Assembly (NCBI GenBank): GCA_022821775.1
Contig: JAJECY010000265.1
Span: 1 to 33,230, forward strand
Reading direction: 5' to 3'
From: Acidobacteriota bacterium
Lineage (GTDB): Bacteria; Acidobacteriota; Terriglobia; Versatilivoradales; Versatilivoraceae
DNA: 33,230 bases
The notes beneath the pieces are model-generated. The model was not told the origin of the DNA. It was given only the letters and a program-made list of their open reading frames with translations, and ran no database searches. The number at the start of each line of letters is the position of its first letter. Within the stretch, counting starts at the first letter, position 1. Made by a program: the position numbers and the translations under genes. Shown here one piece after another: positions 12,497 through 31,127 of the stretch.

Positions 12497-13258
12497 TCAA
12501 GTCGATGTCTGCTCGAGGTGTTGGTGCAGGTCGGCGCTGCTGGAAAGAATATGGGCCTTCATGGCCTGGCGGGCCGGTTCGGCCTGGCCCGATCTCAGGG
12601 CCTTGAGGATAGCCCGGTGTTCCCGGATGGAGGACTCGGCTCGATGGCGGTCCTCGGGGCTGGAAGAGGGGGCTACCAGGCTCTCCTCGATCCAGGCCTG
12701 GAGGTAGCCGCGGGTCATACTGACCAGGTGGTGCAGGATGGTGTTCTGGGTTGCCTGGGCCACCAGCAGGTGAAATTCCAGGTCGAATCGCAGGTACTGC
12801 TCCGGCAGGTCCACCGAACTCTCCATGCCCTGAATGGTTCTTTCCATGGCCTCCAGGTTGGCTGGAGTGGCTTTACGGGCCGCCGAAAAAGCCGTTTGGG
12901 TTTCCAGCATGAGCCGCGTTTCCAGAAGGTCCTCAACCTTCTTGGGGTCCAGCAGAAGGCCCCACTGCAGATTCCGCTCCAGGTATCGCTGGTTGTTGTG
13001 GGAGACGAAGGTCCCTTCCCCGACGCGGCCGTCCAGGATCCCCATCACCGCCAGCGATCGCAAAGCCTCTCGGAGTGTCGCCCGCCCCACCCCGAAGCGC
13101 TTGCAAAGATCCTTCTCCGATGGAAGTCGCTCCCCGGGCTGGAGCACATTGCGAGAAATCAGATCGATGATCTGCTCGATGATCTTGTCACTCAGGGAGG
13201 TCCGGCGAATGGGACTCACTTCCTGCAGGGGTTCGGGCCTGGCGGACTTGACGGGCAT
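12497..13258 (-). CDS. GntR-family transcriptional regulator, FadR subfamily
   Basis: A 253-residue DNA-binding repressor or activator. Residues about 18-85 form a GntR winged helix (LQPGERLPSEKDLCKRFGVG, RATLREALRSLAVMGIL, VGEGTFV). The rest is an all-helical FCD effector domain with the metal-site type residues in RFDLEFHLLVAQAT, EHRAILKAL and AMKAHI, so the ligand is likely a carboxylate bound through a metal ion. It is divergent from the corrinoid methyl-transfer operon that starts at 13501, and a FadR-type palindrome lies in the gap. The likely job is control of that operon and of itself, with the substrate or a product as the inducer. That assignment is inferred from position and operator. 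Confidence 0.93.
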   Translation of the reverse strand: MPVKSARPEPLQEVSPIRRTSLSDKIIEQIIDLISRNVLQPGERLPSEKDLCKRFGVGRATLREALRSLAVMGILDGRVGEGTFVSHNNQRYLERNLQWGLLLDPKKVEDLLETRLMLETQTAFSAARKATPANLEAMERTIQGMESSVDLPEQYLRFDLEFHLLVAQATQNTILHHLVSMTRGYLQAWIEESLVAPSSSPEDRHRAESSIREHRAILKALRSGQAEPARQAMKAHILSSSADLHQHLEQTST

Positions 13259-13346
13259 GGGTTCGGTCTCTGCGTCCGGGGCGCGTCCAACCTCCCGCCG
13301 GTTGCTTTGGGGGAGCGGGAAAAGACTTTACTTGGAGGCCACCACT

Positions 13347-13376
13347 ATAATACCGTATATTTAGGTTGTCAGACAA
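13347..13376 (-). promoter_or_regulatory. Candidate promoter of the gntR gene overlapping its operator
   Basis: On the minus strand TTGTCT (13376-13371), an 18-bp spacer and TATTAT (13352-13347), giving a start near 13340 and a leader of about 80 nt. The -35 element lies inside the operator palindrome, as expected for autorepression. A plus-strand TATAAT occupies 13346-13351 but has no good -35, so the promoter of the divergent operon is less certain. Confidence 0.45.
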
Positions 13377-13500: not shown

Positions 13501-14145
13501 ATGGGTCTCACCGTCGATCTCGGAAGGCGGATTGAGCTGGTCCCGATGGACCCGCATTTTCAGGACATCTCCATCGGCCTCTACAGGCGGGAGGGAGTGG
13601 CCGCATTGGAGGTGCTGGTGCACAGCTATAGCCGGCGTCCCGGTACCCGCGAGCGCCTGGAGTTCATTGCCGAGACCATGACGGTTCTCGGAGGGATGGA
13701 AGCCTTGCCCGGGGAACCCCTGGTTCTGCGCTTTCCCGCGGGCAGCGATCTTCCGGTGGCCGCCAGAAGGGTTTTCCTGGAAGCCTGCAAGCGTCCCACG
13801 GGCGAGGAGGTCGTCCCCCGGCCCCTCACCATCTTCGACAAGAAATCACAGAGCCAGGTCCAAGTGGCCAGTCTGGGAGAAGGCCTTTACGAGGTAACGC
13901 TGGAAGCTGAAGGGGAGCGAGCCGCCAGGCGGTCCGCTCATATCGCCGGCGGAATCGTCAAGCTCAGCGGGGCCGGCCTGGTGGAAGGGCATCCGGCGCG
14001 GGTGGCCTTGCCGAATCGGCAGTCCATAGACCCGCTGGTCGGATTGCTGCTGGTTCGGGCACTCAACGTCCGAGCCATCGTTCGCGAACAGGAAGCGGCT
14101 GCTTCCCGGGGCGTCCTGTCCGCCCCCAGCGCCCAGAACAACTAG
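13501..14145 (+). CDS. Conserved-looking hypothetical protein, first gene of the methyl-transfer operon
   Basis: A soluble, probably cytoplasmic protein of 214 residues that I do not recognise. ATG 13501 has GAGGGG about ten nt upstream. There is no signal peptide, membrane segment, cysteine pair or nucleotide-binding loop. Features visible are an N-terminal part with VEVLVHSYSRRPGTRERLEF-like mixed alpha/beta character (residues about 35-65), a hydrophobic mid-section and a C-terminal stretch SIDPLVGLLLVRALNVRAIV. It is the promoter-proximal gene of an operon for corrinoid methyl transfer, 30 nt upstream of the UroD-type methyltransferase. A role in substrate handling or as a partner of that enzyme is inferred from position alone. 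Base composition matches the operon, so it is likely a genuine long-term member. Confidence 0.8.
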   Translation: MGLTVDLGRRIELVPMDPHFQDISIGLYRREGVAALEVLVHSYSRRPGTRERLEFIAETMTVLGGMEALPGEPLVLRFPAGSDLPVAARRVFLEACKRPTGEEVVPRPLTIFDKKSQSQVQVASLGEGLYEVTLEAEGERAARRSAHIAGGIVKLSGAGLVEGHPARVALPNRQSIDPLVGLLLVRALNVRAIVREQEAAASRGVLSAPSAQNN

Positions 14146-14175
14146 GCAGATTCTTACATACGGGAGGGAAGTCCT

Positions 14176-15231
14176 ATGGATAGCGGATCTCGATCGGTTC
14201 CATCCATGAGCGGCCGCGAGCGAGTCATGGCTGCGCTGCGGCGCGAGCCGGTGGATCGCACCCCTGTCTGCACCCCCACCTCGGTGGCCACGGTCGAGTT
14301 GATGGACCTGGTCGACGCCCCCTTTCCGGAAGCCAACCAGCAGCCCGAGCTCATGGCTCGCCTGGCGGCTACGGCGTATACCGAGCTGGGGTTCGATACC
14401 ATCATGCCGGTGTTTACCATCATTCAGGATTCCTCGGCCCTGGGGTGCAAGATCCAGTGGGAGCAGAAGGACAACTGGCCCACCGTGAAGATGCGCGAGC
14501 CCATCTGGGAAACCCCTGACGACATTCGGATTCCACCCGATTTCCTGACCCATCGGGACACCCGTTGTGTCCTGGACGCCATCACGATCCTCAAGAAGGA
14601 GTATGGCGACGAGGTGGCTATCATCGGCAAGACCATGGGGCCCTGGTCGCTAGGCTATCACTGCATGGGGGTAGAGCCGTTTCTGCTGATGTCGCTGGAC
14701 GATCCGGGGAAGACCAAGCTCTGTCTGGACAGAATGAAGGAGGCCACCATCCAGTTCGGGATCGCTCAAGTGGAGGCCGGAGCCGACGCCATCACGCTGC
14801 CCGATCACGCCACCGGAGACCTGGTGAGCGGTGAGTACTACAGGAGATACCTCCGTGAGCTCCACATCGAGTTCGCCGAAAAGATACGGATCCCCATCAT
14901 TCTGCACATCTGTGGAAAGACGGTGGACCGCATGGAATACATTGCCCAGACGGGAATGGCCGCCTTCCATTTCGACTCCAAGAACGAGCCGCGGGAATCG
15001 GTCGACATCATGAAGGACCGCATCTCCCTGGTGGGAAACATCAACAACCCGGAGACGCTCTTCTCCAAGGGGCCTGAAGAGGTCCGCCAGGAGGTGGTCA
15101 AGAATCTGGACGCCGGGGTTCACATGGTGGGGCCCGAGTGCGCAATCCCCCTCCAGACATCCATTGAGAACCTGAAGGAGATCCCGGTAGCGGTGAGAGA
15201 CTGGAGCCGGGAGCAGGCAGCCGGGAATTAA
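14176..15231 (+). CDS. Uroporphyrinogen decarboxylase-family corrinoid methyltransferase (MtaA/CmuA-N type)
   Basis: A 351-residue TIM-barrel protein of the URO-D superfamily, starting GRERVMAALRREPVDRTPV after a short leader. Unlike true HemE it carries the zinc-site pattern of methylcobamide methyltransferases: H244-x-C246 in LHICGKT and C322 in GPECAIPL. It is followed 27 nt later by its corrinoid partner, so it very probably transfers a methyl group between a small molecule and the cobalt. Family relatives are MtaA/MtbA (methylcobamide:coenzyme M) and the N-terminal half of chloromethane methyltransferase CmuA. Coenzyme M is not expected here, so a substrate-side role like CmuA is favoured, but the substrate cannot be read from the sequence. 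ATG 14176 follows GGGAGG. Confidence 0.9.
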   Translation: MDSGSRSVPSMSGRERVMAALRREPVDRTPVCTPTSVATVELMDLVDAPFPEANQQPELMARLAATAYTELGFDTIMPVFTIIQDSSALGCKIQWEQKDNWPTVKMREPIWETPDDIRIPPDFLTHRDTRCVLDAITILKKEYGDEVAIIGKTMGPWSLGYHCMGVEPFLLMSLDDPGKTKLCLDRMKEATIQFGIAQVEAGADAITLPDHATGDLVSGEYYRRYLRELHIEFAEKIRIPIILHICGKTVDRMEYIAQTGMAAFHFDSKNEPRESVDIMKDRISLVGNINNPETLFSKGPEEVRQEVVKNLDAGVHMVGPECAIPLQTSIENLKEIPVAVRDWSREQAAGN

Positions 15232-15258
15232 GGTCGGGAAGACGACCGAGAGGGAATC

Positions 15259-16017
15259 ATGGCCAATATCGCAGACATCCGGAACGAGTTCCTCCGCGAG
15301 GAGATCGAAGAGTTCCTTGAACGTCCCGAGGAAATCGAGCGGACGGTCGGCGTCTTCTCCAAGGCGAGGCCCGGCATGCAGGACATTGCCGCCGCCCTGA
15401 TCGAGGGCGAAAACGACACCGTGGACCGGCTGACCCGCGCGGCCCTGGAGGAAGGAATCGGCGCCCTCGAGATCATGGACGACGGCCTGATCGCGGGAAT
15501 GGGCGTGGTGGGGATCAAGTTCCGCGAGAACTTCATCTTCGTGCCGGAGGTCCTGGCCTGCGCCCGGGCCATGAAAGCGGGGATGGCTCACATCGAGCCC
15601 ATTCTTTCGGCTTCGGGCGTCGAGCCCCTGGGCCGGGTCATCATGGGGACGGTCAAGGGCGATCTCCACGACATCGGCAAGAACCTGTGCATCATGATGC
15701 TTCGGGGGGCGGGGTTCGTGGTGATCGACCTGGGGGTGGACACCTCGGCCGACGAGTTCATCGATGCCATCGAGGAGCACGAGGCCTCGCTCATGGGGAT
15801 GTCGGCCCTGTTGACCACCACCATGCCCAACATGGGGAAGACCATCGAGGCCTTTATCGACGCCGACCTGCGGGACGACGTCAAGATCATGGTGGGTGGA
15901 GCGCCGGTCACCCAGGAGTTCGCCGACGACATGGGCGCCGACGGGTACGGAAAGGATGCGCTGGCTTGCGTCGAGTTGGCCAAGGACCTGCTGAGCGCCG
16001 AAGTGGAAATCCCTTAG
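15259..16017 (+). CDS. Methyltransferase cognate corrinoid protein
   Basis: A 252-residue methyl carrier of the MtaC/MttC/CmuA-C type. Residues about 40-125 form the helical cap domain (B12-binding_2). Residues about 126-245 form the Rossmann-like cobalamin domain with the lower-ligand motif D135-L-H137-D-I-G140, then S182-x-L184 and the GG at 213-214; H137 is the expected cobalt ligand. It is about 30-40 residues longer than most MtaC-type proteins because of an N-terminal extension rich in Glu (EFLREEIEEFLERPEEIE). It sits between the URO-D-type methyltransferase and the reactivation genes, and should take a methyl group as Co(I) and pass it on as CH3-Co(III) to the pterin methyltransferase encoded downstream. 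Confidence 0.95.
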   Translation: MANIADIRNEFLREEIEEFLERPEEIERTVGVFSKARPGMQDIAAALIEGENDTVDRLTRAALEEGIGALEIMDDGLIAGMGVVGIKFRENFIFVPEVLACARAMKAGMAHIEPILSASGVEPLGRVIMGTVKGDLHDIGKNLCIMMLRGAGFVVIDLGVDTSADEFIDAIEEHEASLMGMSALLTTTMPNMGKTIEAFIDADLRDDVKIMVGGAPVTQEFADDMGADGYGKDALACVELAKDLLSAEVEIP

Positions 16018-16022
16018 CCGTC

Positions 16023-16292
16023 ATGCAGAAAATCGACAAGGCCGAATACGAAAAGCGCCTCAAGCGGATCAGCGAACTGTTCTCCAGCATGGTCGTTCAC
16101 GCCGACGAGCTGTCCACTTACCGCTGCCCCTACAAGAACCGCTTCGATCAGTGTACGGCCAAGTTCGGGTGCCGCAACCAGCGACGGCCCCCGGTCAAGG
16201 GGGACCTTCTGCTCTGTGCCGGAGACGACAAGCTGGACTACCGCAGTGCCTGGGAGACCCAGGCCGAGGACGGCGGCGAGCCCGGGCGGTGA
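16023..16292 (+). CDS. Small four-cysteine protein between corrinoid protein and RACo
   Basis: An 89-residue protein from ATG 16023, five nt after the corrinoid gene. A basic/acidic helical N-terminus (about 1-30) is followed by C35-x8-C44-x5-C50-x14-C65 within CPYKNRFDQCTAKFGC and DLLLCAG. The spacing could hold a Zn2+ ion or an Fe-S cluster. I do not recognise a named family. Its TGA overlaps a GTG that is in frame with the RACo gene, so the two are tightly linked. It could be an electron donor, assembly factor or adaptor for corrinoid reactivation; this is inferred from position only. Confidence 0.8.
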   Translation: MQKIDKAEYEKRLKRISELFSSMVVHADELSTYRCPYKNRFDQCTAKFGCRNQRRPPVKGDLLLCAGDDKLDYRSAWETQAEDGGEPGR

Positions 16293-16309
16293 CTGAGACA
16301 GGACACTCG

Positions 16310-17950
16310 ATGGGCACCATTCGGCACAATGATCGAAGCCTCGAGCTGGAGGCGGGCAGGACGCTTTTCGACTACGCAGACGAGTTGCGGGTCCAGGTGC
16401 CCACCTCCTGCGGCAGGACCGGATCCTGTCATGAGTGCATTGTAGAAGTTCAGCAGGGGATGGACGCGCTCTGTCCCCGAAGCCCCAGCGAATCCTTCCT
16501 GCGCGACCCCTACCGGTTGGCCTGCCAGTCGGCTGTAGTCGACGACAGCGGCGATGTCGGCTTCTCGCCCCTCCGGCGCAAACCCCAGATTCTCACCCGT
16601 GCAACCCCGGTCAAGACATCGAGGCTGGATCCGATGGTGGTCCGCCAGGGCGATGAAGTCCTCTACGACGGGCAGGTCATCGACCGCTACCGGGGACATC
16701 TGTACGGGCTTGCCATGGACCTGGGCACCACCACCGTGGTGATCGAACTGGTGGATCTGGAGAACGGCGAGACCCTGGCGGTCGCTTCCTTCGAGAACCC
16801 GCAGCGATTCGGTGGAAGCGACATCATGAATCGGATTTCCTACGACGGGGGGCCGTTTCAAGGCGAGCTGCACCAGGCCATTGTCAAGGGTCTCAACTTC
16901 GAGATCCGTGAGCTCTGCAAGCGGCTGCGCGTTCGTCGCCGGGAGATCTACGAGGTGGCGGTGGCCGGCAACTCCACCATGCGCGACCTCTTCTTCGGTC
17001 TGGACGTCCAGAGCATCGGGCAGAAGCCGTACAAGTCTTTGATCGAGCACGAAGTTCTCGACGGAAAGCGCCGGAGCATGTCCCTCACCGTCGAGGCCGC
17101 CAGTCTGGGGGTCCAGGTCCATCCCCGGGCCCGCATCTTCGGACTGCCCCTGATCGCCAGCCACGTGGGGGCCGATACGGCTGCCGACCTGGTGGCCATA
17201 GACATGGAACGTCAGGACGAAGTCACCATGCTGGTGGACGTGGGGACCAACACCGAAGTGGTGGTCGGGAACGGAGAACGCATGATGACGGCCTCCTGTC
17301 CGGCCGGCCCCGCATTCGAAGGGGGCCTGGTCAAGTACGGCATGCCGGGATGCGAGGGGGCCATCGAGTCCATCGGCGCCGTCAACGGACGCTTCGACTA
17401 TCGAACCATCGGCGGCGTGGAGCCCCAGGGGATTTGCGGATCCGGACTGATCGACCTGTTGGCCGAGCTGCGCCGCACCGATCAGATGACACCCAAGGGG
17501 GTTTTCCCCGACAGGGCCTTCGAAATCAACGTCGTTCCGGAGCACGGGATCACGCTCTCCAGAGAGGATGCCAGCAACCTGGCGCAGGCCAAGGCGGCCA
17601 ACTTCTGTGGCCAGTACATTGTCATGCGGCGTTTCGGCATCGCTCCGGGAGACGTCCGACGGCTCTACCTGGCAGGAGGCTTCGCCAACTACGTCAATGT
17701 GGCCAATGCCATCGATATCGGATTCCTGGCGCCGGTGGATCGGGATCGCATCGTCAAGGTGGGCAATGCGGCGGTGCAGGGAGCCAAGGCGGTGCTGCTC
17801 TCCCGCAGCCGGCGGGAATCCCTGGAGCGCCTGATCGGGCGGATCGAGCACGTCGAACTGGAAACGACGCCGGATTTCTTCGAAGTCTTCGTAGAGGGTT
17901 GTCAATTCAAGCCCATGCCTCAAGAAACCGCCGACCTGAAGGTGGGGTAG
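16310..17950 (+). CDS. RACo-type corrinoid activation protein (2Fe-2S + ASKHA domain)
   Basis: Reductive activator of corrinoid proteins: it uses ATP to return inactive Co(II) to Co(I). The 546-residue product has an N-terminal 2Fe-2S ferredoxin domain with C34-x5-C40-x2-C43 and C72, a linker, and a large ASKHA ATPase/DUF4445 domain. The latter shows GLAMDLGTTTVVIELVDLE, VAVAGNSTMRDLFFGLD, MLVDVGTNTEVVVGNG, CPAGPAFEGG, ICGSGLIDLLAEL and LAGGFANYVNVANAIDIGFL. ATG 16310 is preferred, with a weak AGGA site; GTG 16289 overlaps the previous stop and would add seven residues. It is two nt from the next gene, so this core is certainly one transcript. Its presence shows that the corrinoid protein must work as Co(I). 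Confidence 0.95.
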   Translation: MGTIRHNDRSLELEAGRTLFDYADELRVQVPTSCGRTGSCHECIVEVQQGMDALCPRSPSESFLRDPYRLACQSAVVDDSGDVGFSPLRRKPQILTRATPVKTSRLDPMVVRQGDEVLYDGQVIDRYRGHLYGLAMDLGTTTVVIELVDLENGETLAVASFENPQRFGGSDIMNRISYDGGPFQGELHQAIVKGLNFEIRELCKRLRVRRREIYEVAVAGNSTMRDLFFGLDVQSIGQKPYKSLIEHEVLDGKRRSMSLTVEAASLGVQVHPRARIFGLPLIASHVGADTAADLVAIDMERQDEVTMLVDVGTNTEVVVGNGERMMTASCPAGPAFEGGLVKYGMPGCEGAIESIGAVNGRFDYRTIGGVEPQGICGSGLIDLLAELRRTDQMTPKGVFPDRAFEINVVPEHGITLSREDASNLAQAKAANFCGQYIVMRRFGIAPGDVRRLYLAGGFANYVNVANAIDIGFLAPVDRDRIVKVGNAAVQGAKAVLLSRSRRESLERLIGRIEHVELETTPDFFEVFVEGCQFKPMPQETADLKVG

Positions 17951-17952
17951 CC

Positions 17953-19593
17953 ATGAATCCGCCCACCTTGAACTCCAGCCCCTCCGGCAGTTCCTGGGTG
18001 AAGCAGCCGCTGGCCCAACTGCTGCAGCAGACCGACTCCTTTGTGACTTGCATCGAACTCGTGACCTCCCGCGGCATCATCACCGAGCGTAGCGGACGCC
18101 GCGTTCTGGACCTGGCTCGCGGCCTGGCCCGGCATCCGCAGGTCCATGCCCTCAGCATCACCGACAATCCCGGGGGCAACGCCATGCTGAGCGCCGACAC
18201 CCTGGGGACCGATCTGATCGCGCGGGGGCAGGAGGTGATCATCCATCTCTCCTGCAAGGACTGGAACCGGAATGCCCTCCAAAGCCGGGGGTGGAAGCTG
18301 GCCAGCGAGGGATTCAACAACATTCTGGCCCTGTCCGGCGACTGTCCCACCGGCGGATACGCGGGTCAGGCCGGCGGCGTTTTCGACATCGATTCGGTTG
18401 GGCTGCTCAAGATGTATTCGGACATGAACGCCGGCTTGAGGGAAGAAGGGCGGGGTGAAGCCACCATGGCGCCCACCCGGTTCTTCCTGGGGGCGGTGGT
18501 CACCAACTTCAAGCGGCACGAACGCGAGGTGATGCCCCAATACTTCAAGCTGGCGCTGAAGGTCAGGAGCGGGGCCCAGTTCATCATCAATCAGATCGGC
18601 TACGACTCGCGCAAGCAGGACGAGCTGCTGAAGGCCATGAGCCACTACGGGTTGCAGGTTCCGGTGCTGGCCAACGTCTACGTGCTCAGCCGGCCCGCGG
18701 CCCGCTTTTTCAACAGCGGCGCCATCCCCGGCGTTGTCGTGACCGATGAGCTGCTGAGCCTGGTGGAAAAGCAGGCAAAGTCGCCGGACAAGGGACGGGC
18801 CTTCTTCCTGGAGCTTGCAGCCAAGCAGTGCGCCATCGCCCGCGGCCTGGGATATAGGGGAGTCTACCTGGGAGGGCACCTGAAGCTGGAACACTATGCC
18901 CGGGTGCTCTCCATCGCCGACAGTTTCGCCGAGAACGACTGGAAGGACTTCGCCAGAGAGATCCGGTTTCCGCAGAAGGACGAGTTCTATCTCTTTGACG
19001 GCAATGCCGAGACCGGCCTCAGCTCCACCGAGATCAACCCCTCCTACCTGGCGTCCAAGACCCCGGAGGCCCTCGACGCTCTGCAGGGCCGGCTTCCCCT
19101 GAACTACAAGCTCAATCGCTGGGTTCACGAGCGGGTTTTTGAGAGTGGGAGCCCGGGATTCCCCCTGGGTCAGGGATTCTACCGGACGGTGGAGCGGTCC
19201 GCTCCGGGGGTGCGGAAGGCCTTGCACGGGATGGAGCATGCTTTTAAGATAGTGGGCTTCGATTGCCGCGACTGCGGGGATTGCTCTCTGCCGGACATCG
19301 CCTATCTGTGTCCGGAGTCCCAGTGCGCCAAGAACCAGCGGAACGGCCCCTGCGGGGGGACCCGGCAGGGCAAGTGCGAGGTGGGTGAAAAGGATTGCAT
19401 CTGGGCGCTGGCCTACGATCGCTTGAAGGCTTACGGCGAGGAAGAACGCATGCTGGAGCGTCCGGTGGTCTTCCGCAACGGTGCTCTCAGAGGTACCAGC
19501 GCCTGGGCCAACGCCTTCCTGGGCCGTGACCACCATGCGGCCGCCGGAGAGAGTGGAGAGGCCTCCCGGGCCGGTCCCTCGAAAAAGGGATGA
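17953..19593 (+). CDS. metF: Methylenetetrahydrofolate reductase fused to MetV-like cysteine-rich C-terminal domain
   Basis: A 546-residue fusion. Residues about 25-330 form an MTHFR (MetF) barrel: CIELVTSRGI, HALSITDNPGGNA, IIHLSCKDWNRNAL, NNILALSGDCPTGG and FIINQIGYDSRKQDELL. Residues about 420-490 form a MetV-type (MTHFR_C) cysteine-rich domain with C438-x2-C441-x2-C444, C453, C458, C467, C475 and C482 (for example CRDCGDC and CAKNQRNGPCGG). In acetogens MetF and MetV are usually separate and the cysteine domain links to electron carriers. Here the enzyme probably runs as methyl-H4folate oxidase, feeding methyl groups to methylene-H4folate. It begins two nt after RACo and is followed by 90 nt before the pterin methyltransferase. 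The last 30 residues look disordered. Confidence 0.93.
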   Translation: MNPPTLNSSPSGSSWVKQPLAQLLQQTDSFVTCIELVTSRGIITERSGRRVLDLARGLARHPQVHALSITDNPGGNAMLSADTLGTDLIARGQEVIIHLSCKDWNRNALQSRGWKLASEGFNNILALSGDCPTGGYAGQAGGVFDIDSVGLLKMYSDMNAGLREEGRGEATMAPTRFFLGAVVTNFKRHEREVMPQYFKLALKVRSGAQFIINQIGYDSRKQDELLKAMSHYGLQVPVLANVYVLSRPAARFFNSGAIPGVVVTDELLSLVEKQAKSPDKGRAFFLELAAKQCAIARGLGYRGVYLGGHLKLEHYARVLSIADSFAENDWKDFAREIRFPQKDEFYLFDGNAETGLSSTEINPSYLASKTPEALDALQGRLPLNYKLNRWVHERVFESGSPGFPLGQGFYRTVERSAPGVRKALHGMEHAFKIVGFDCRDCGDCSLPDIAYLCPESQCAKNQRNGPCGGTRQGKCEVGEKDCIWALAYDRLKAYGEEERMLERPVVFRNGALRGTSAWANAFLGRDHHAAAGESGEASRAGPSKKG

Positions 19594-19683
19594 CGGGAAC
19601 ACCATCAGGACAGGGCTGAAACGGCAGGAAAGACGGAAGGCAATCACAGGCCGTATCCAGCGACACGACGAGAAAGTAGGGCC

Positions 19684-20718
19684 ATGAACAGGAATGGGAA
19701 CCAGGTTCAGTTCACGACCATCGGCGAGAACATTCACACCACGCGGGTCTTGTTGAGAAAGGGGAAGCGCATCGTCGAGAATCCCGACGGCGTGGAATCG
19801 GTCGTCTACAGGACTGCCGCGGGAGAGACCCGGTACCTGCCCATCCCGGAAGCGGTCAAGCGTACCCAGGATTACCAGGAGGGTCGGGTCAAGCACGTGA
19901 AAATCGCCGTCCTGGCGGCCCAGGCCGGTGGCCCGGAGTCGGAAGAGGGGCTTACTTATCTCCGCTACCTGGTAGAGCGGCAGTTATCGGCGGGCGTGGA
20001 CTACCTCGACCTGAATGTGGACGAGGTGTCCCTCAAGCTGAATGAGCAGAAGGAGGCCATGCAGTGGCTGGTTCGAACGGTGCAGTCCATGAGCACCGTG
20101 CCGGTTTCGGTGGATTCCTCCAACATCGAGATCATTCAGGCCGGCCTGGAGGCCTGCCGTGACGAGGCGGAGAGGAACCTGCTGAATTCGGCCTCCCTGG
20201 AGCGCCTGGAAGCCCTGGACCTGGCCCGGGACCACGACACCAGGGTCATCGTGACGGCGGCCGGCGAGAAGGGGATGCCGCAAAACGAGGTGGAGCGCCT
20301 GGAAAATGCCTCGCGCATGGTGGAGGCCGCCCTGGCCAGGGGGATCTCCCTGGACAGCATCTACGTGGATGTCCTGGTGTTTCCCATCTCGGTCGACGGC
20401 CGGTTCGGCCATCATGCCCTGGAGACCATCAGGCAGTTGCGGGCCCGGTACGGGTCGGAGATGCATATCACCGGGGGGCTGAGCAACGTTTCCTTCGGAC
20501 TGCCCCGCCGCCGGCTGATCAACGACGTCTTCATTCTCCTGTCCCTGGAGGCGGGAGCGGACAGCGGCATCATCGACCCGGTGGCCAGCAACCTGCAGTC
20601 GATCCTATCCATGGACCGCCAGGCCAAGCCCTACCGGATGACGGAGAATTTGCTGTTGGGCAGGGACCGTCACTGCAAGAGTTTCCTGCGGGCCTACCGC
20701 AAGGGAGAGTTGCAGTAG
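19684..20718 (+). CDS. Methyltetrahydrofolate:corrinoid methyltransferase (pterin-binding, AcsE/CmuB/MtgA-like)
   Basis: A 344-residue pterin-binding TIM barrel related to dihydropteroate synthase and AcsE. Recognisable stretches are FTTIGENIHTTRV at the N-terminus, ERQLSAGVDYLDLNVDEVS, VPVSVDSSNIEIIQAGLEAC, DSIYVDVLVFPISVD and ITGGLSNVSFGLPRRRLIND; the GGLSNVSFGLP signature is typical of methyl-H4folate methyltransferases rather than of folate synthesis. The enzyme should pass the methyl group from the corrinoid protein to tetrahydrofolate, giving methyl-H4folate for the MetF-MetV fusion. An unusual basic loop after the N-terminus (LRKGKRIVENPDG) is visible. ATG 19684 follows GAGAAAGTAGGGCC; the gap of 46 nt to the next gene has no terminator. 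Confidence 0.92.
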   Translation: MNRNGNQVQFTTIGENIHTTRVLLRKGKRIVENPDGVESVVYRTAAGETRYLPIPEAVKRTQDYQEGRVKHVKIAVLAAQAGGPESEEGLTYLRYLVERQLSAGVDYLDLNVDEVSLKLNEQKEAMQWLVRTVQSMSTVPVSVDSSNIEIIQAGLEACRDEAERNLLNSASLERLEALDLARDHDTRVIVTAAGEKGMPQNEVERLENASRMVEAALARGISLDSIYVDVLVFPISVDGRFGHHALETIRQLRARYGSEMHITGGLSNVSFGLPRRRLINDVFILLSLEAGADSGIIDPVASNLQSILSMDRQAKPYRMTENLLLGRDRHCKSFLRAYRKGELQ

Positions 20719-20764
20719 GCGGCCCGCCGCGTGCGGGGCAGCGGAGAAAGAGCAGGCTGGAATC

Positions 20765-21088
20765 ATGGCGCAGTATCAGATTCTGTTCTGGAAAGACATT
20801 CCGGCCCAGATCAAGGTCTACGAAGGCCGTCGCGGCGTTTCCAGGCCGTTGCCCGACCGCTTCCAGGTCGAGATCGACCGGGTGGCCATGGCCGAAGGCC
20901 TGGCGGGCACGGATGACTACCTGGACCAGTGGCACTGGACGGCCAGGCAGGAACGGTCCGGAACCACCCGGGAGGTTCTGGACAGTCTGGCCGAGGAGCT
21001 CGAACGGGAGTTCGACGCCCGCAAGCAGCGCCTCCGCCCCCGACGACGGGGCGGATCATTCGAGAGTAAAACAGGGGGTCGTCAATAA
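20765..21088 (+). CDS. 'Virulence factor' family small protein (PF13769-like)
   Basis: A 107-residue soluble protein. MAQYQILFWKDIPAQIKVYE, RPLPDRFQVEIDRVAMAEGL, DDYLDQWHW and the basic-acidic tail match, as I recall the family, the small 'virulence factor' proteins that occur next to MetF and corrinoid/pterin methyltransferase genes, especially in Rhizobiales and Rhodobacterales. The family name is historical and no reaction is known; context points to one-carbon or corrinoid chemistry. The last 17 or so codons (from 21034) lie in a dispersed GC-rich repeat that also occurs, inverted, at 24080-24105, so the C-terminus (LRPRRRGGSFESKTGGRQ) is probably not functional family sequence. It lies 34 nt before the SDR gene. 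Confidence 0.82.
   Translation: MAQYQILFWKDIPAQIKVYEGRRGVSRPLPDRFQVEIDRVAMAEGLAGTDDYLDQWHWTARQERSGTTREVLDSLAEELEREFDARKQRLRPRRRGGSFESKTGGRQ
21034..21075 (+). repeat. Dispersed GC-rich repeat, copy 1
   Basis: Bases 21034-21059 (CCGCCCCCGACGACGG, continuing GGCGGATCAT) recur exactly, on the opposite strand, at 24105-24080. Beyond the 26 identical bases the two copies stay similar for about 15 more (AGTAAAACA against GTGAAGAAACA). This copy forms the 3' end of the 'virulence factor' gene. Confidence 0.8.
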
Positions 21089-21122
21089 GGACGAACCACG
21101 AATGAGCACGAAGAGGTAGCCG

Positions 21123-21911
21123 ATGGCAGCAAGCAGACTGAGACTGGAGAACAAGGTGGCCTTGGTCACGGGAGCCTCTCGCGGCATAGGGAAAGCGATC
21201 GCCCTGGCCTTTGCCGAGGAGGGAGCCGCGGTGGCCGTCAACTACGCGGCCAATCGCCGCATGGCCGAAGAAGCGTGTGAAGCCATCGCTTCGGCAGGGG
21301 GCCGCGCCCTTTGCGTTCAAGCCGACGTGGGAGTGGCCGAGCAGGTGGACGCCATGGTCGGCCAGGTAGTGCAGGAATACGGGCGGATCGACATCCTGGT
21401 CAACAATGCCGGGCTGCTCAACCAGGAGCCTTCGCTGGAGGCGACCGGGGCCGGGTTCGACCGGATGGTGGAGGTCAACGTCAAGGGGGTCATCCGCTGT
21501 GCCGCGGCCGTGGCGGAGGGCATGAAGCAGCGGGGCAGGGGGAGGATCATCAACGTCTCCTCCATTGCCGCCCTGGGCACCTCCATGCCGGGAGTGACCG
21601 GTTACGCCATGACCAAGGCCTCGGTCAACATGTTTACCCGCCGGCTTGCCAGGGAGCTGGGTCCCCACGGCATCACCGTGAACGCCATCGCGCCCGGATT
21701 TATCCTCACCGACATGTCTCGGGAGGGCGCCCGGGCCAGCGGGACCTACGTCGACGGCATCGCCGAACGGACCATGCTGCGTCGAGTGGGCGAGCCGGTG
21801 GACATCGCCGGGGCGGCCCTCTTTCTGGCCTCGGACGACTCGTCCTTCATGACGGGGCAGGTGCTCACCGTGGATGGCGGGCGCATCGACTATCTCACCC
21901 ACTCGGTGTAG
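21123..21911 (+). CDS. Short-chain dehydrogenase/reductase (FabG-like)
   Basis: A 262-residue classical SDR. The NAD(P)-binding loop is T16-G-A-S-R-G-I-G23, the NNAG motif is at 94-97, and the catalytic residues are S147, Y161 and K165 (SSIAALG and YAMTKAS). ITVNAIAPGFILTDMS and the C-terminal FMTGQVLTVDGG are standard. The Arg after TGAS fits NADP(H), but cofactor choice cannot be fixed from this. The closest named relatives would be 3-oxoacyl-ACP reductases, but the position at the end of a methyl-transfer operon and before two 2-hydroxyacid dehydrogenases suggests an alcohol or hydroxy-acid substrate released from the demethylated compound. ATG 21123; 34 nt after the previous gene. Confidence 0.93.
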   Translation: MAASRLRLENKVALVTGASRGIGKAIALAFAEEGAAVAVNYAANRRMAEEACEAIASAGGRALCVQADVGVAEQVDAMVGQVVQEYGRIDILVNNAGLLNQEPSLEATGAGFDRMVEVNVKGVIRCAAAVAEGMKQRGRGRIINVSSIAALGTSMPGVTGYAMTKASVNMFTRRLARELGPHGITVNAIAPGFILTDMSREGARASGTYVDGIAERTMLRRVGEPVDIAGAALFLASDDSSFMTGQVLTVDGGRIDYLTHSV

Positions 21912-21987
21912 CCGGCCCGCCGGGCCCCGGGGGGGCCGGGTGCTTCGGACGGAATCCCGAGACCGGGTCAAAGGAAAGCAATCCCTC

Positions 21988-22968
21988 ATGCCGCCTGAAC
22001 GGATCGTATCCATCGCTCCCATCGATCGGATAGCCATCGACATCCTGCAACGGGTGGCTCCGGTGGAGATCTCGCCCTCCCCGGATGAACCGACGGTGCT
22101 CACCCTGCTTGAGGGGACCGTCGGTCTGGTGGCCCGAGGCACCGAGGGCGGCATTACGCGAAAGATCATGGAAAGCTGTCCGGCCTTGCGGGTCATCGGT
22201 CGACCCGGGGTCGGCTACGATACGGTGGATGTGGCCTTTGCCACCCGGCGGAAGATTCCGGTGGTGTACGCTCCCATCGGAGGGTTCGCCGTCGCCGAAG
22301 CGGCCCTGGCGCTGCTGATGGCCATCGTCAAGAAGGTCCAGTTGGCCGACACCATCCTCAAGCAGGGGCAGTGGCAACGCCGCTACCGGTTGAGCACGGG
22401 AGATCTGACCGGGCACACCCTGGGGATCATCGGGCTGGGTCGAATCGGAGGGCGACTGGCCCGGCTGGTGCAGAATTTCGAGATGGAGGTGCTGGGATAC
22501 GATCCCTTCCTGACGGAAGAAGCAGCCAGGGGAATGGGAGTCGAGCCGGCGCCGTTGGATGATTTGCTGCGACGTTCCGATTTCATTTCGGTGCACGTCC
22601 CCCTGGGGGAGCAGACGCGCGGCATGATCAACCGGGAGCGGATCGCCCGGATGAAGCCGGGAGCCATTTTCATCAACACTGCCCGGGGCGGGGTGGTGGA
22701 GAGCCTGGACGTACTGGCCGATGCCCTGGAGAGCGGGCACCTGGGAGCGGTGGGTCTGGACGTGTTTCCCACCGAACCCCCCGACACCTCCCACCGCCTG
22801 TTCAAACACCCCCACTTTACCGGGGCCCCCCATTTGTTGGGAGTGAGCAGCTTGGCCATGGAGCGCATCTACCGGTCCATGGCTACCGACATGGTGGCGG
22901 TCCTGCAGGGACGGCGGCCCCGATACTGCGTCAATCCGGAGGTTTGCGAGGAGCTGTTGGAGTCTTGA
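21988..22968 (+). CDS. D-isomer-specific 2-hydroxyacid dehydrogenase
   Basis: A 326-residue NAD(P)-dependent dehydrogenase that interconverts a 2-oxo acid and its D-2-hydroxy acid. The Rossmann loop G149-L-G-R-I-G154 is followed by D173-like acidic residue in LGYDPF, which favours NAD. The catalytic set is R233 (TARGG), E263 (FPTEPP) and H282 (APHLLG). The HADH signature MKPGAIFINTARGGVV is complete. ATG 21988 follows AAGGAAAG by eight nt; the frame is open to 21874 inside the SDR end, which is not family-like. It resembles phosphoglycerate/formate dehydrogenase-like members rather than the next gene, so the two are distant paralogues in tandem, 30 nt apart. Substrate is unknown. Confidence 0.93.
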   Translation: MPPERIVSIAPIDRIAIDILQRVAPVEISPSPDEPTVLTLLEGTVGLVARGTEGGITRKIMESCPALRVIGRPGVGYDTVDVAFATRRKIPVVYAPIGGFAVAEAALALLMAIVKKVQLADTILKQGQWQRRYRLSTGDLTGHTLGIIGLGRIGGRLARLVQNFEMEVLGYDPFLTEEAARGMGVEPAPLDDLLRRSDFISVHVPLGEQTRGMINRERIARMKPGAIFINTARGGVVESLDVLADALESGHLGAVGLDVFPTEPPDTSHRLFKHPHFTGAPHLLGVSSLAMERIYRSMATDMVAVLQGRRPRYCVNPEVCEELLES

Positions 22969-22998
22969 CTGATATGACATCAGGGAAGGAAGGAAACT

Positions 22999-23964
22999 AT
23001 GAGAATCGTGGTGCTTGACGGCTACACCCTGAATCCCGGAGATCTTTCATGGGAGGGTTTGGAGAAGCTGGGAACCACCGAGGTTCACGATCGAACCGAA
23101 CCCGGGCTCACCCTTCAGCGTGCAGGGGGCGCGGAGGTCGTATTGACCAACAAGACCGCCCTGGACGCGGAGGCGTTGCGCCGGCTCAAGGGCGAGGGAC
23201 TTCGTTACGTGGGGGTGCTGGCCACCGGATACAACGTGGTGGACATCCAGGCGGCCAGGCAACTGGGAATCCCCGTGACCAACGTGCCCACCTACGGGAC
23301 GGCCTCGGTGGCCCAGTTCGCCTTCGCGCTGCTGCTGGAGCTCTGCCACCATGTGCAGCTCCACAGCGATGCCGTCCGGGGGGGAGAGTGGTCCCGGAGC
23401 ATCGAATGGTGTTTCTGGAAGACGCCTCTCATCGAGCTGTCCGGGCGGACCATGGGGATCGTCGGATTCGGACGCATCGGTCGGCAGGTCGGCCGCATCG
23501 CCGACGCCATGGGCATGCGGGTCATCGCCCATGACGCCGTCACCCTCAACCCTCCCGACTATGAAGGGTTTCGCTGGACCGGCGTGGAAGAGCTGCTGCA
23601 GGAAGCCGATGTGGTCAGCCTGCACTGTCCTCTGTTCCCCGAGACCGAGGGAATGATCAATGCGGAGAGGCTGGCGATGATGAAGCCTACCGCCTTTCTT
23701 CTCAACAATTCGCGGGGGCCCCTGGTCGTCGACCAGGACCTGGCCGACGCCCTCAACGCGGGTCGGATTGCCGGGGCGGGGCTCGACGTGCTGTCGGTCG
23801 AACCTCCCCTGGAGACCAACCCCCTGCTCTCGGCCAGGAATTGCCTGGTGACCCCCCACATCTCCTGGGCGACCCGCGAGGCCCGGTCGCGGCTGATGGA
23901 CACCGTGGTTGGAAATGTGCAGAGTTTCGTCGAGAACCGGACTCAGAACGTCGTGAACCCCTGA
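22999..23964 (+). CDS. D-2-hydroxyacid dehydrogenase, hydroxypyruvate reductase/glycerate dehydrogenase type
   Basis: A 321-residue member of the D-2-hydroxyacid dehydrogenase family starting MRIVVLDGYTLNPGDLSWEG, an N-terminus characteristic of glycerate dehydrogenases (HprA). The loop G156-F-G-R-I-G161 binds NAD(P), and the catalytic residues are R239 (NNSRG), E268 (SVEPP) and H287 (TPHISW). The likely reaction is hydroxypyruvate to D-glycerate or glyoxylate to glycolate. It closes the one-carbon operon and is followed by a repeat-filled gap. Hydroxypyruvate reductase is a serine-cycle enzyme in methylotrophs, but no other serine-cycle gene is present here. ATG 22999 follows GGAAGGAAGG. Confidence 0.93.
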   Translation: MRIVVLDGYTLNPGDLSWEGLEKLGTTEVHDRTEPGLTLQRAGGAEVVLTNKTALDAEALRRLKGEGLRYVGVLATGYNVVDIQAARQLGIPVTNVPTYGTASVAQFAFALLLELCHHVQLHSDAVRGGEWSRSIEWCFWKTPLIELSGRTMGIVGFGRIGRQVGRIADAMGMRVIAHDAVTLNPPDYEGFRWTGVEELLQEADVVSLHCPLFPETEGMINAERLAMMKPTAFLLNNSRGPLVVDQDLADALNAGRIAGAGLDVLSVEPPLETNPLLSARNCLVTPHISWATREARSRLMDTVVGNVQSFVENRTQNVVNP

Positions 23965-25404: not shown

Positions 25405-26319
25405 TTGGCAGTCCTGATCAGCGTCCTCATCGCCGCCGCCGTAGCCCTCTTTCTGCCTGACGCCGTCCTGCGGTTGCAACCGATGCTGGCGCCCGCCTTT
25501 GCGCTGACCATGGTCCTGGTGGGAAGCCTGGTGCGGGCGGAACACAGGGAGAGCTTCCGGCGAGCCCCCCTGAGGCCCATCCTGGGCCTGATCTGCCAGT
25601 ACACCGTCATGCCCTTGACCGCCTGGCTGATTTCCCTGGCCTTCCAGGAACCCGCCCTGCGGATCGGCATCGTGCTGGTGGGGTGCATGCCCGGCGCCAT
25701 AGCCTCCAATGTCATGACCCTGCTGTTCAAGGGAGACCTGATTCTCTCCATCACCCTGACCACCCTGGCCACCTTGACTTGCCCGGTGATCCTGGCCTTC
25801 TGGCTGCCTCTCCTGGCCGGCGCCCGCCTTGAGGTTCCGGCAGGCTCCCTGGCCGTGAGCGCGGTTTGGATGGTGCTGCTGCCGGCCGCCGCCGGGATCC
25901 TGCTGCGCAAGTACCTCCCGAAATTTCCGGCGTGGTGGGACCGGATGGCCGCTCTGGTGGCTTCCGTGGCCATTGTCTTGATCATCATGGTGGTGGTGGC
26001 CGCCAATCGGGAACGGCTGGCCGAGACCGGCCCCTTCCTGATTGCGGCCCTGGTGACGCTGAACCTGAGCGCCTATGGCGTGGCCTACCTGGCCGGCGGG
26101 CTGCTGGGCTGGCCCCCGGCTCAGCGCAGGACCCTGGTGATCGAGGTGGGCATGCAGAATGCCGGGCTGGGTTCCGTCCTGGCCATGGCTCACCTGGGGC
26201 AGGCGGCCGCCATTCCGAGCGCGTTCTATACGGCCCTTTGCGTGTTGACCGCGGCCATGGGCCTGCCTCTGTGGCGGAGGCTGGGGAGGATCGCGCCAGT
26301 CGTTGACAAATCCTCATGA
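25405..26319 (+). CDS. Bile acid:sodium symporter (BASS) family transporter
   Basis: A 304-residue inner-membrane protein with about eight to ten hydrophobic segments. Typical BASS stretches are FALTMVLVGSLV, VMPLTAWLISLAFQ, VLVGCMPGAIASNVMTLLFKGD (the conserved PGG/A-SN crossover region) and TLVIEVGMQNAGLGSVLA (EVGMQN, the second Na+-site signature). Despite the name, bacterial members carry 2-oxo acids, pantoate and other organic anions. I take TTG 25405 as start because GGAGG lies six nt upstream and the protein then begins in the first helix; this is slightly shorter than usual. Possible substrates could be related to the hydroxy-acid enzymes upstream, but nothing shows this. Confidence 0.9.
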   Translation: MAVLISVLIAAAVALFLPDAVLRLQPMLAPAFALTMVLVGSLVRAEHRESFRRAPLRPILGLICQYTVMPLTAWLISLAFQEPALRIGIVLVGCMPGAIASNVMTLLFKGDLILSITLTTLATLTCPVILAFWLPLLAGARLEVPAGSLAVSAVWMVLLPAAAGILLRKYLPKFPAWWDRMAALVASVAIVLIIMVVVAANRERLAETGPFLIAALVTLNLSAYGVAYLAGGLLGWPPAQRRTLVIEVGMQNAGLGSVLAMAHLGQAAAIPSAFYTALCVLTAAMGLPLWRRLGRIAPVVDKSS

Positions 26320-26331: not shown

Positions 26332-26454
26332 TGAGCTTCCCACCGAGGACTGTGTCCGCAACAGAGCCAGGTTGGCCCAAGGGTCTGCCGGCGAAACCTG
26401 TGTCCATGGCTGCGAGAGTTGTTGGTACGGGCTGCTAAAGCCGAGGAGTCGAAC

Positions 26455-28458: not shown

Positions 28459-28484
28459 GTTTGATTGGTGGAGGTGAAGGGGAA

Positions 28485-31085: not shown

Positions 31086-31127
31086 GGCTTGCGTTCCGGC
31101 TTTACCGGACACAAACAGGAGAATCAG

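Follow-up and report, generated by a model that had tools for sequence, protein, structure and literature searches.

The operon at positions 13501-23964 of the analysed window, by which we mean the whole stretch of 33,230 nucleotides from an Acidobacteriota bacterium, is real, and with modest confidence we explain it as a modular methyl-transfer system built around a corrinoid protein and belonging to the split-methionine-synthase/Mtg type. In it, an MtaA-like zinc methyltransferase (g2) and a new small partner protein (g1) would take the place of the MTTB-type donor. An earlier sequence-only reading had described an operon for corrinoid-dependent methyl transfer that includes a folate branch and a methyltransferase distinct from HemE, and had called for a search for the same gene set in other genomes; the description is supported, and the set was found again elsewhere. 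Its further proposals, namely a split CmuA, the lack of a known substrate enzyme, carbon-skeleton roles for three dehydrogenases and oxidation of the methyl group through folate as the general route, are not supported.

Organization of the operon and its neighbourhood

Ten plus-strand genes, separated from g1 through g10 by gaps of 2-90 bp, are accompanied by an eleventh in the gap before the activase gene, in line with the earlier count of ten or eleven closely spaced genes. g1 (13501-14145, 214 aa) is followed by g2 (14176-15231), a corrinoid methyltransferase of the MtaA/CmuA (URO-D) family with a His-Cys-Cys zinc-site pattern, and, as a separate gene 27 bp further on, by the MtgC-like corrinoid (B12-binding) protein g3 (15259-16017; PF02607 and PF02310, the B12-binding domain with its cap). 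Next come gX (16023-16292, 89 aa, four conserved Cys), the RACo-type corrinoid activase g4 (16310-17950; 2Fe-2S and ASKHA; PF00111, PF17651 and PF14574), the MetF-MetV fusion g5 acting on methyl/methylene-tetrahydrofolate (17953-19593; MTHFR domain PF02219 and PF12225), the MtgD/AcsE-like pterin-binding methyltransferase g6 (19684-20718; Pterin_bind, PF00809) and g7 (20765-21088), which matches PF13769, the “virulence factor” family. The starts at 16310 and 17953, like that of g9 at 21988, are corrected likely starts. These Pfam domains agree with the corrinoid protein, RACo, MetF-MetV fusion and pterin methyltransferase recognized previously.

The last three genes, also matched by Pfam models, encode a short-chain dehydrogenase (SDR; g8, 21123-21911) and two D-2-hydroxyacid dehydrogenases (g9, 21988-22968; g10, 22999-23964), which had been thought to act on the carbon skeleton of the substrate. 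All three lie downstream of the operon only in loci L004, L006 and L007, whose g2 proteins are 94-99% identical, and at other loci weaker homologues are found elsewhere, mostly on the opposite strand (35-46% identity for the SDR, 26-38% for the dehydrogenases). They are lineage-specific neighbours and not part of the operon core.

Upstream, a GntR/FCD-family regulator gene (12497-13258, minus strand; PF00392 and PF07729) diverges from g1 at a distance of 242 bp, and at 25 of the 80 loci a homologue with 46-94% identity lies close to the g1-g2 pair. The promoter scan returned two minus-strand promoter-like sites at 13344-13376, in the gap upstream of g1, and no plus-strand site before g1; terminator-like matches numbered 7, about as many as the 7.6 expected by chance. 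No conserved transporter or substrate enzyme was observed in the annotated neighbouring gene clusters. The genes inserted between the corrinoid protein, the activase and MetFV in L009, L011, L020 and L068 vary by locus group and gave no substrate clue, as judged by coordinates and first residues, with one representative compared with a family library. The neighbours of the lone g1-g2 pair in Poribacteria (beta-lactamase-like, PQQ repeat, thioredoxin, BatA and guaB) were set aside, as they look unrelated and differ from those at other loci.

An MtaA-like methyltransferase with a constant neighbour

Several comparisons place g2 near the methylcobalamin:coenzyme M methyltransferases. It passes the cut-offs of both TIGR01463, the MtaA/CmuA family model (253.8 bits, cut-off 235.4), and PRK06252, the methylcobalamin:CoM methyltransferase subfamily (264.9, cut-off 244), and falls below the equivalog cut-offs of MtaA (243.5 against 400) and MtbA (203 against 600). 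Its top PDB match is 4ay7 (E 6.2e-52), and its identity is 33% to MtaA (E 2e-58) against 25% over 350 aa to CmuA (E 3e-7). The zinc ligands H244, C246 and C322 pointed out earlier are kept in 81, 80 and 81 of 81 aligned g2 sequences, respectively. Assignment to HemE was rejected, with 69.7 bits for TIGR01464 against a cut-off of 302.95 and 20% identity to the presumed HemE encoded at C147; PF01208 occurs at three places on three contigs of the same genome, and the operon holds a single URO-D gene. In a tree of 19 rows, four of them on very long branches that leave the deeper branching order open, g2 stays apart from HemE, MtaA and CmuA. The idea that g2 and g3 are the halves of a split CmuA is not supported, since g2 is nearer to MtaA and the remaining genes fit the Mtg/split-methionine-synthase cluster. 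A substrate enzyme need not be missing either: in URO-D systems the URO-D protein can itself fill that role (PMC13222342, PMC10418091). The gene always found beside g2 is g1.

The His-Cys-Cys site makes a methylated sulfur compound the most likely donor, an argument that comes from one preprint (PMC10418091). Two other substrate classes were weighed. In a dehalogenating system of the Cmu/Cdm/Mec kind, g2 would take its methyl group from a methyl halide; the cmu pathway contains a corrinoid protein, a pterin methyltransferase and MetF, all of which have equivalents here, and g2 and CmuA fall under the same family model. MecE of the dichloromethane cassette has likewise been assigned to the CmuA/MtaA family (PMC9768040). 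We nevertheless consider dehalogenation quite unlikely, given the lower identity of g2 to CmuA, the unfused methyltransferase and corrinoid parts, a g3 that is nearer to MtgC (44%) than to CmuA (35%), and an operon that, unlike pCMU01, has neither purU nor folD among its neighbours. In addition, CdmB, taken here by its published description, showed no zinc (PMC13222342), whereas the zinc pattern of g2 is kept. A methoxyaromatic O-demethylase of the Vdm/Odm/Mto kind would share the four-part plan of a URO-D MTI, a corrinoid protein, a pterin MTII and an activase, and the top PDB match of g6 is 4o0q (E 1.1e-34), the closest solved relative, which we take to be linked to O-demethylation. This assignment is very improbable in view of the linkage to PF02574 and of the site itself: in O-methyl enzymes of the superfamily, again following published descriptions, one or both Cys are replaced (PMC10418091), while 80 of 81 g2 sequences retain His-Cys-Cys.

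The two proteins that matter most in the operon are g1 and gX. In all 80 loci kept, g1 precedes g2 and shares its strand. It has no Pfam or NCBIfam match, and none of 35 homologues has a Pfam match better than E 0.014. Its two halves are homologous and align to each other (hhalign probability 96.8, E 2.8e-10). An AF2 model with a mean pLDDT of 90.3 found nothing in the PDB below E 0.045 with Foldseek and a top Z of 5.6 with VIA-align 2 (rmsd 3.0 over 79 residues), in the range that its notes call common; the fold-search rows mostly span residues 2-101 and barely cover the second half. A profile search of PDB sequences likewise returned nothing below E 0.07. Counting against the preferred reading, the window's own g1 has lost both C-x3-H motifs of its family; the pattern-based count of these motifs is a lower bound, as L031, L041 and L043 carry both in the alignment. 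Among the literature matches listed there was no paper on g1-g2, which is weak evidence of absence. gX was observed in 38 of the 80 loci, with its Cys pattern in all 38 and a fusion to the activase N-terminus in 15; no family model scored above its cut-off, the PDB profile search gave no match, and the AF2 model is poor (pLDDT 63.7).

Corrinoid protein, folate branch and links to methionine

The Sinorhizobium meliloti Mtg cluster contains a counterpart of each of g3, g4, g5, g6 and g7, at 26-48% identity. For g3 the match is 44% over 207 aa (E 1e-62), and the label MtgC for the S. meliloti protein is derived from its product name and PMC12478193. The activase g4 is 32% identical over 444 aa to the ASKHA protein, g5 aligns to separate MetF (26%) and MetV (34%) proteins, g6 shares 34% over 250 aa (E 1e-32) and g7 48% over 56 aa. 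H137 of g3, pointed out before, lies within a D-x-H-D-I-G motif that is present in 38 of 38 clustered relatives, and the N-terminal ~40 residues of g3 are unaligned in most more distant relatives. The reported absence of MttB/MtgB is confirmed, with no PF06253 match for an MTTB donor in the query genome; such proteins occur in 3 of 51 genomes. A g3 orthologue was detected in all 50 g2-bearing genomes (partial in G336). When 297 Acidobacteriota genomes were searched for g2 and, separately, for the g3 type that goes with it (66-100% identity), the same four came up both times, with the next g3 match at 55% or less.

At E 1e-20, no g6 was found in 19 of the 50 g2-bearing genomes. If these truly lack it, the folate oxidation proposed before cannot be the shared core, and g2 is the sole evident methyl entry to g3 in those genomes. 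Among these 19, 18 have PF02965 and 17 have a PF02574 orthologue with 61-65% identity, and 12 of 13 fetched g3 clusters are ordered g3, gX, activase, PF02574, with some gaps of up to ~4 kb. The pattern of g6 and PF02965 gives a Fisher p of 6e-4, or 3e-5 when PF02965 proteins that stand alone are left out of the MetH count, values inflated by shared ancestry, as 15 of the 19 genomes are labelled Poribacteria. As most genomes are MAGs, gene absences may be gaps, yet G329 and G334 are almost wholly one contig.

These distributions also bear on the direction of transfer. It is conceivable, although we regard it as unlikely, that g2 is an exit, with methyl groups passing from methyl-folate (g5, g6) through g3 to g2, whose acceptor would be a thiol, like the coenzyme M methylated by MtaA, or some other compound. 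MtaA is the nearest of the sequences compared and, among solved structures, the nearest relative, and its role in its own pathway is to methylate a thiol; g2 scores above the PRK06252 cut-off, and g5 and g6 could supply the methyl groups. The genomes without g6 speak against such an exit.

The sequence-only reading missed the link to methionine synthesis. Across the 50 genomes, 40 carry a PF02574 orthologue of 59-100% identity (the upper value is that of the query genome itself), which often lies close to the activase gene, and in 10 none was found; other PF02574 proteins turned up in all 25 genomes checked, among them those 10. The query genome has a single PF02574 protein, at C269, and no PF02965 (MetH activation domain). 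PF01717 (MetE-like) proteins, found in 50 of 51 genomes including this one, could make methionine instead. A purely methionine-synthesizing system, with g2 as an alternative homocysteine methyltransferase and g1 as its helper, would suit the zinc thiol-type site of g2 and the 10 genomes without the orthologue; it is scarcely plausible when 40 genomes have that orthologue and when g1-g2-g3 persist in genomes that have PF02965/MetH.

In the donor-replacement reading that we prefer, reduction of the g3 cobalt to Co(I) would fall to g4, for which gX would serve as redox module, as family membership and gene fusion suggest, and g2, aided by g1, would transfer the methyl group of the donor, probably a methylated sulfur compound, onto g3. 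Methyl-g3 may then pass the group to homocysteine via the PF02574 protein encoded elsewhere in the genome or, alternatively, to tetrahydrofolate via g6, followed by oxidation by MetFV. Run in reverse, g6, g3 and the PF02574 protein might together act as methionine synthase in this organism, an assignment suggested in part by the lack of a detectable MetH activation domain in its genome.

More tentatively, g1-g2 may form a two-subunit donor module, with g1 founding a new family, that would move the methyl group of a methylated sulfur compound (or halide) through the shared corrinoid protein to homocysteine, a folate-independent methionine route scattered over Acidobacteriota, Poribacteria, Latescibacterota and Gemmatimonadota. 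If the donor-replacement reading is right, corrinoid hubs joining methionine synthesis and methyl catabolism would not be confined to bacteria with MTTB donors, and in uncultivated lineages from several phyla another donor enzyme would act on a perhaps common methylated compound. g1 and gX would then be two protein families with testable roles, and g1-g2-g3 a marker set for tracking unseen methyl flux.

Comparison with known methyl-transfer systems

The soluble coenzyme M methyltransferases MtaA and MtbA share with g2 the TIGR01463 model, the His-Cys-Cys site and, for MtaA, 33% identity, but g2 lies below both equivalog cut-offs, has g1 as partner and occurs in bacteria with an Mtg-like set. 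The Cmu chloromethane pathway similarly combines a URO-D methyltransferase with a corrinoid domain and a folate branch; here, however, the two are unfused, the identity to CmuA is low and the neighbours differ. An analogy, and only that, may be drawn with MesD-MesX, a folate-independent methionine synthase in which the methyltransferase needs an uncharacterised partner protein (PMC7857596): MesD is MetE-like and has no cobalamin need, and g1 has no match to MesX/DUF1852 or other Pfam models.

Type 1 mlp gene clusters also contain an MtaA-like methyltransferase with His-Cys-Cys, a corrinoid protein and an activase. They have several Mlps, are without a folate methyltransferase and belong to obligate anaerobes (PMC10418091), whereas this operon has one g2 and a g6.

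Similarity is broadest to MtgBCD(E)/RamA of Ruegeria pomeroyi and Sinorhizobium meliloti and to the split methionine synthase of Phaeobacter inhibens, which share a separate corrinoid protein, a pterin methyltransferase, a RACo-type activase, MetF and MetV, a PF13769 protein and, encoded away from the cluster, a PF02574 protein. In Phaeobacter, protein sets of this type are responsible for methionine production (PMC5764234), and in the marine relative Ruegeria they have a double role, in making methionine and in demethylating betaine (PMC12478193). The operon described here differs in its fused MetF and MetV, in the presence of gX and in having no DUF1638 gene, which encodes a second reactivation protein, among its genes. 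If our reading is true, the “virulence factor” family PF13769 would be a C1-cluster protein, and the donor enzyme would be an MtaA-like URO-D protein acting with g1 rather than an MTTB protein.

Gene content of the operon and the URO-D methyltransferase

The region 13501-23964 carries eleven plus-strand genes in the order g1, g2, g3, gX, g4 to g10, spaced by 2-90 bp, and a GntR/FCD gene is transcribed divergently 242 bp upstream of them. The ten genes described in the sequence-only reading were borne out, together with an additional small gene, gX (16023-16292), between the corrinoid protein gene g3 and the activase gene g4. Pfam scans assigned the plus-strand genes g2 to URO-D, g3 to B12-binding with its cap, g4 to RACo, g5 to MTHFR plus PF12225, g6 to Pterin_bind, g7 (20765-21088) to PF13769, g8 to SDR, and g9 and g10 to 2-hydroxyacid dehydrogenases. 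Neither g1 nor gX exceeded the cut-off of any Pfam or NCBIfam model, and the best Pfam match among 35 scanned g1 homologues was no better than E 0.014.

The proposal that the SDR and both 2-hydroxyacid dehydrogenases are pathway members did not hold up, as their operon position was kept only in L004, L006 and L007, loci with a g2 94-99% identical to that of the window; the contig of L005, like several others, stops short of this position. An SDR homologue (42-46%) was found in a group of Poribacteria loci at a different position, some 3.5-7.4 kb away on the opposite strand, and 2-hydroxyacid dehydrogenase homologues elsewhere (26-38%) do not share the operon's position. Outside the operon, an SBF-family (bile-acid:sodium symporter) transporter gene lies downstream of glpX (25405-26319), and three consecutive genes occupy 26419-32459, the first without a Pfam match and the others encoding DUF1549/DUF1553 and DUF1501 proteins, which are common in Planctomycetes and occur here in the genome of an acidobacterium.

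TIGR01463 (MtaA/CmuA family) and PRK06252 both accept the g2 protein at their cut-offs; its scores against the MtaA, MtbA and HemE models fall short of the respective thresholds. Its closest solved structure is MtaA (4ay7, 33% identity), and it is 25% identical to CmuA. A firm placement inside HemE, named beforehand as a case that would count against the methyl-oxidation reading, was not found, given the failed HemE cut-off and an identity of only 20% to the presumed HemE of the same genome (contig C147). In an alignment of 81 sequences, 149 of 351 positions were invariant, and the zinc pattern was kept at H244 (81/81), C246 (80/81) and C322 (81/81). Kountz and Balskus (PMC10418091) link His-Cys-Cys to sulfur or selenium methyltransferases and altered ligands to O-methyl enzymes; because g2 has this pattern, a sulfur-type partner would be the better guess, offered as a guess and not as a result.

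The g1-g2 pair and its corrinoid and activase partners

With each species represented by a single genome, a scan yielded 248 g2 relatives, and the best 80 of these (77-99% identity) were analyzed. By submitted titles, these 80 comprised 47 Poribacteria, 13 Acidobacteriota lineages, 8 Gemmatimonadota, 8 Latescibacterota, 1 Handelsmanbacteria, 1 Acidimicrobiia and 2 unassigned; L004, at 99%, is possibly the same species as the window. In all 80 loci, g1 precedes g2 in the same orientation and no more than 1.6 kb away, with an extra ORF of 158-210 aa between them in five Poribacteria loci (L057, L058, L061, L075 and L079; gene cluster C39). A g1 profile matched 3 of 198 Acidobacteriota genomes, all three g2-bearing, and g1 also adjoins g2 in the fourth g2-bearing genome, G254, which is possibly outside the 198. 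Thus, g1 and g2 are a pair.

The two halves of the g1 protein are homologous to each other (hhalign probability 96.8, E 2.8e-10), and a C-x3-H motif occurs in each. A simple pattern count shows both motifs retained in at least 70 of the 80 loci, and the g1 proteins of G046 and G254, at 30% identity, have them as well. All four residues have been lost from the g1 of the window (13501-14145) and of L004-L007, and they are therefore not essential everywhere. The AF2 model of g1 is confident (pLDDT 90.3) and gave no convincing match among solved structures.

Separate searches with g2 and g3 in 297 Acidobacteriota genomes, selected in the same manner and with matching genome labels, found g2 in four (G000, G023, G046 and G254) and g3 at 66-100% in exactly the same four, the next g3 match being at most 55%. 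Among 50 g2-bearing genomes (3 Acidobacteriota and 47 from the 80 loci, mostly long loci, with L057 left out), a g3 orthologue was present in all 50, the G336 copy being partial. Within the fetched stretch, g3 was not seen in 41 of the 80 loci, for which contig ends are partly responsible. We conclude that g3 belongs with g1-g2. In addition, L121 (8782-10305), from the genome of L007, encodes a second corrinoid protein (63% to g3) beside another URO-D protein (26% to g2), with which a partial URO-D protein of the window's own genome (C130:413-1045, L003) was grouped; the lineage probably has a second methyltransferase system.

gX was found in 38 of the 80 loci and, among the 39 loci showing g3, is missing only from L047, a short contig. 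Its four cysteines are kept in 38 of 38, and 15 of these loci encode it as an N-terminal fusion with the activase. Where g1-g2 stand alone, gX lies beside the activase in all 15 separate g3 clusters fetched. We infer that gX passes electrons to the activase.

Direction of methyl flow

The pterin methyltransferase g6 was found in 31 of the 50 g2-bearing genomes and the MetH activation domain PF02965 in 32, the latter in 18 of 19 g6-less genomes against 14 of 31 with g6. Three of these 14 (G301, G307 and G309) have PF02965 only as a 281-aa stand-alone ORF. The Fisher p is 6e-4, or 3e-5 with the stand-alone cases uncounted, both values being inflated by shared ancestry, as 15 of the 19 g6-less genomes are labelled Poribacteria. 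Stand-alone activation-domain ORFs (281-292 aa) occur beside the split genes in G301, G307, G309 and G310. Where MetH is absent, g6, g3 and PF02574 may replace it; where MetH is present, g6 can be missing while g1, g2, g3, gX and the activase persist.

A PF02574 (homocysteine methyltransferase) orthologue (61-65% identity) is present in 17 of the 19 g6-less genomes. Of 13 g3 clusters retrieved from g6-less genomes, 12 show the order g3, gX, activase, PF02574, with some gaps of up to ~4 kb. In G329 and G334, an assembly gap is an improbable reason for the lack of g6, since a single contig (5.0 and 6.7 Mb, respectively) holds nearly the whole of each genome. Without g6, a methyl group would enter by g2, the only evident entry, and leave by PF02574, the evident exit, to methionine. 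This argues for, without proving, g2 as the methyl entry. Counting against this reading, the PF02574 orthologue was not found in 10 of the 50 genomes; other PF02574 proteins occur in all 25 genomes checked, including these 10.

Comparison with Mtg and split methionine synthase systems

PF02574 genes lie near g1-g2 in 13 of the 80 loci. The window's own genome has one PF02574 protein (C269, 64% to that in the L071 operon) and one PF01717 (MetE-like) protein; a search of it found no MTTB and no PF02965. Such genes in Phaeobacter inhibens encode a methionine synthase in three parts, together with a RACo-like activase (PMC5764234), and in Ruegeria pomeroyi MtgC and MtgD are used in methionine synthesis and betaine demethylation alike, MtgE being the homocysteine subunit (PMC12478193). 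The S. meliloti pSymB cluster runs from MTTB, a corrinoid protein and DUF1638 to a 'virulence factor', and then through MetV, MetF, a pterin methyltransferase and a hypothetical protein to an ASKHA activase. Its counterparts are 44% identical to g3, 32% to g4, 34% to g6 and 48% over 56 aa to g7, while g5 aligns to both MetF (26%) and MetV (34%); gX and g1 have no convincing match among its proteins. PF13769 'Virulence factor' proteins occur in C1/corrinoid clusters of unrelated bacteria (window 20765-21088; L149 9747-10049), and the family name looks misleading. Taken together, the operon is a variant of the split-methionine-synthase/Mtg hub, carrying an MtaA-like putative donor module as well as two small proteins, each of a new family.
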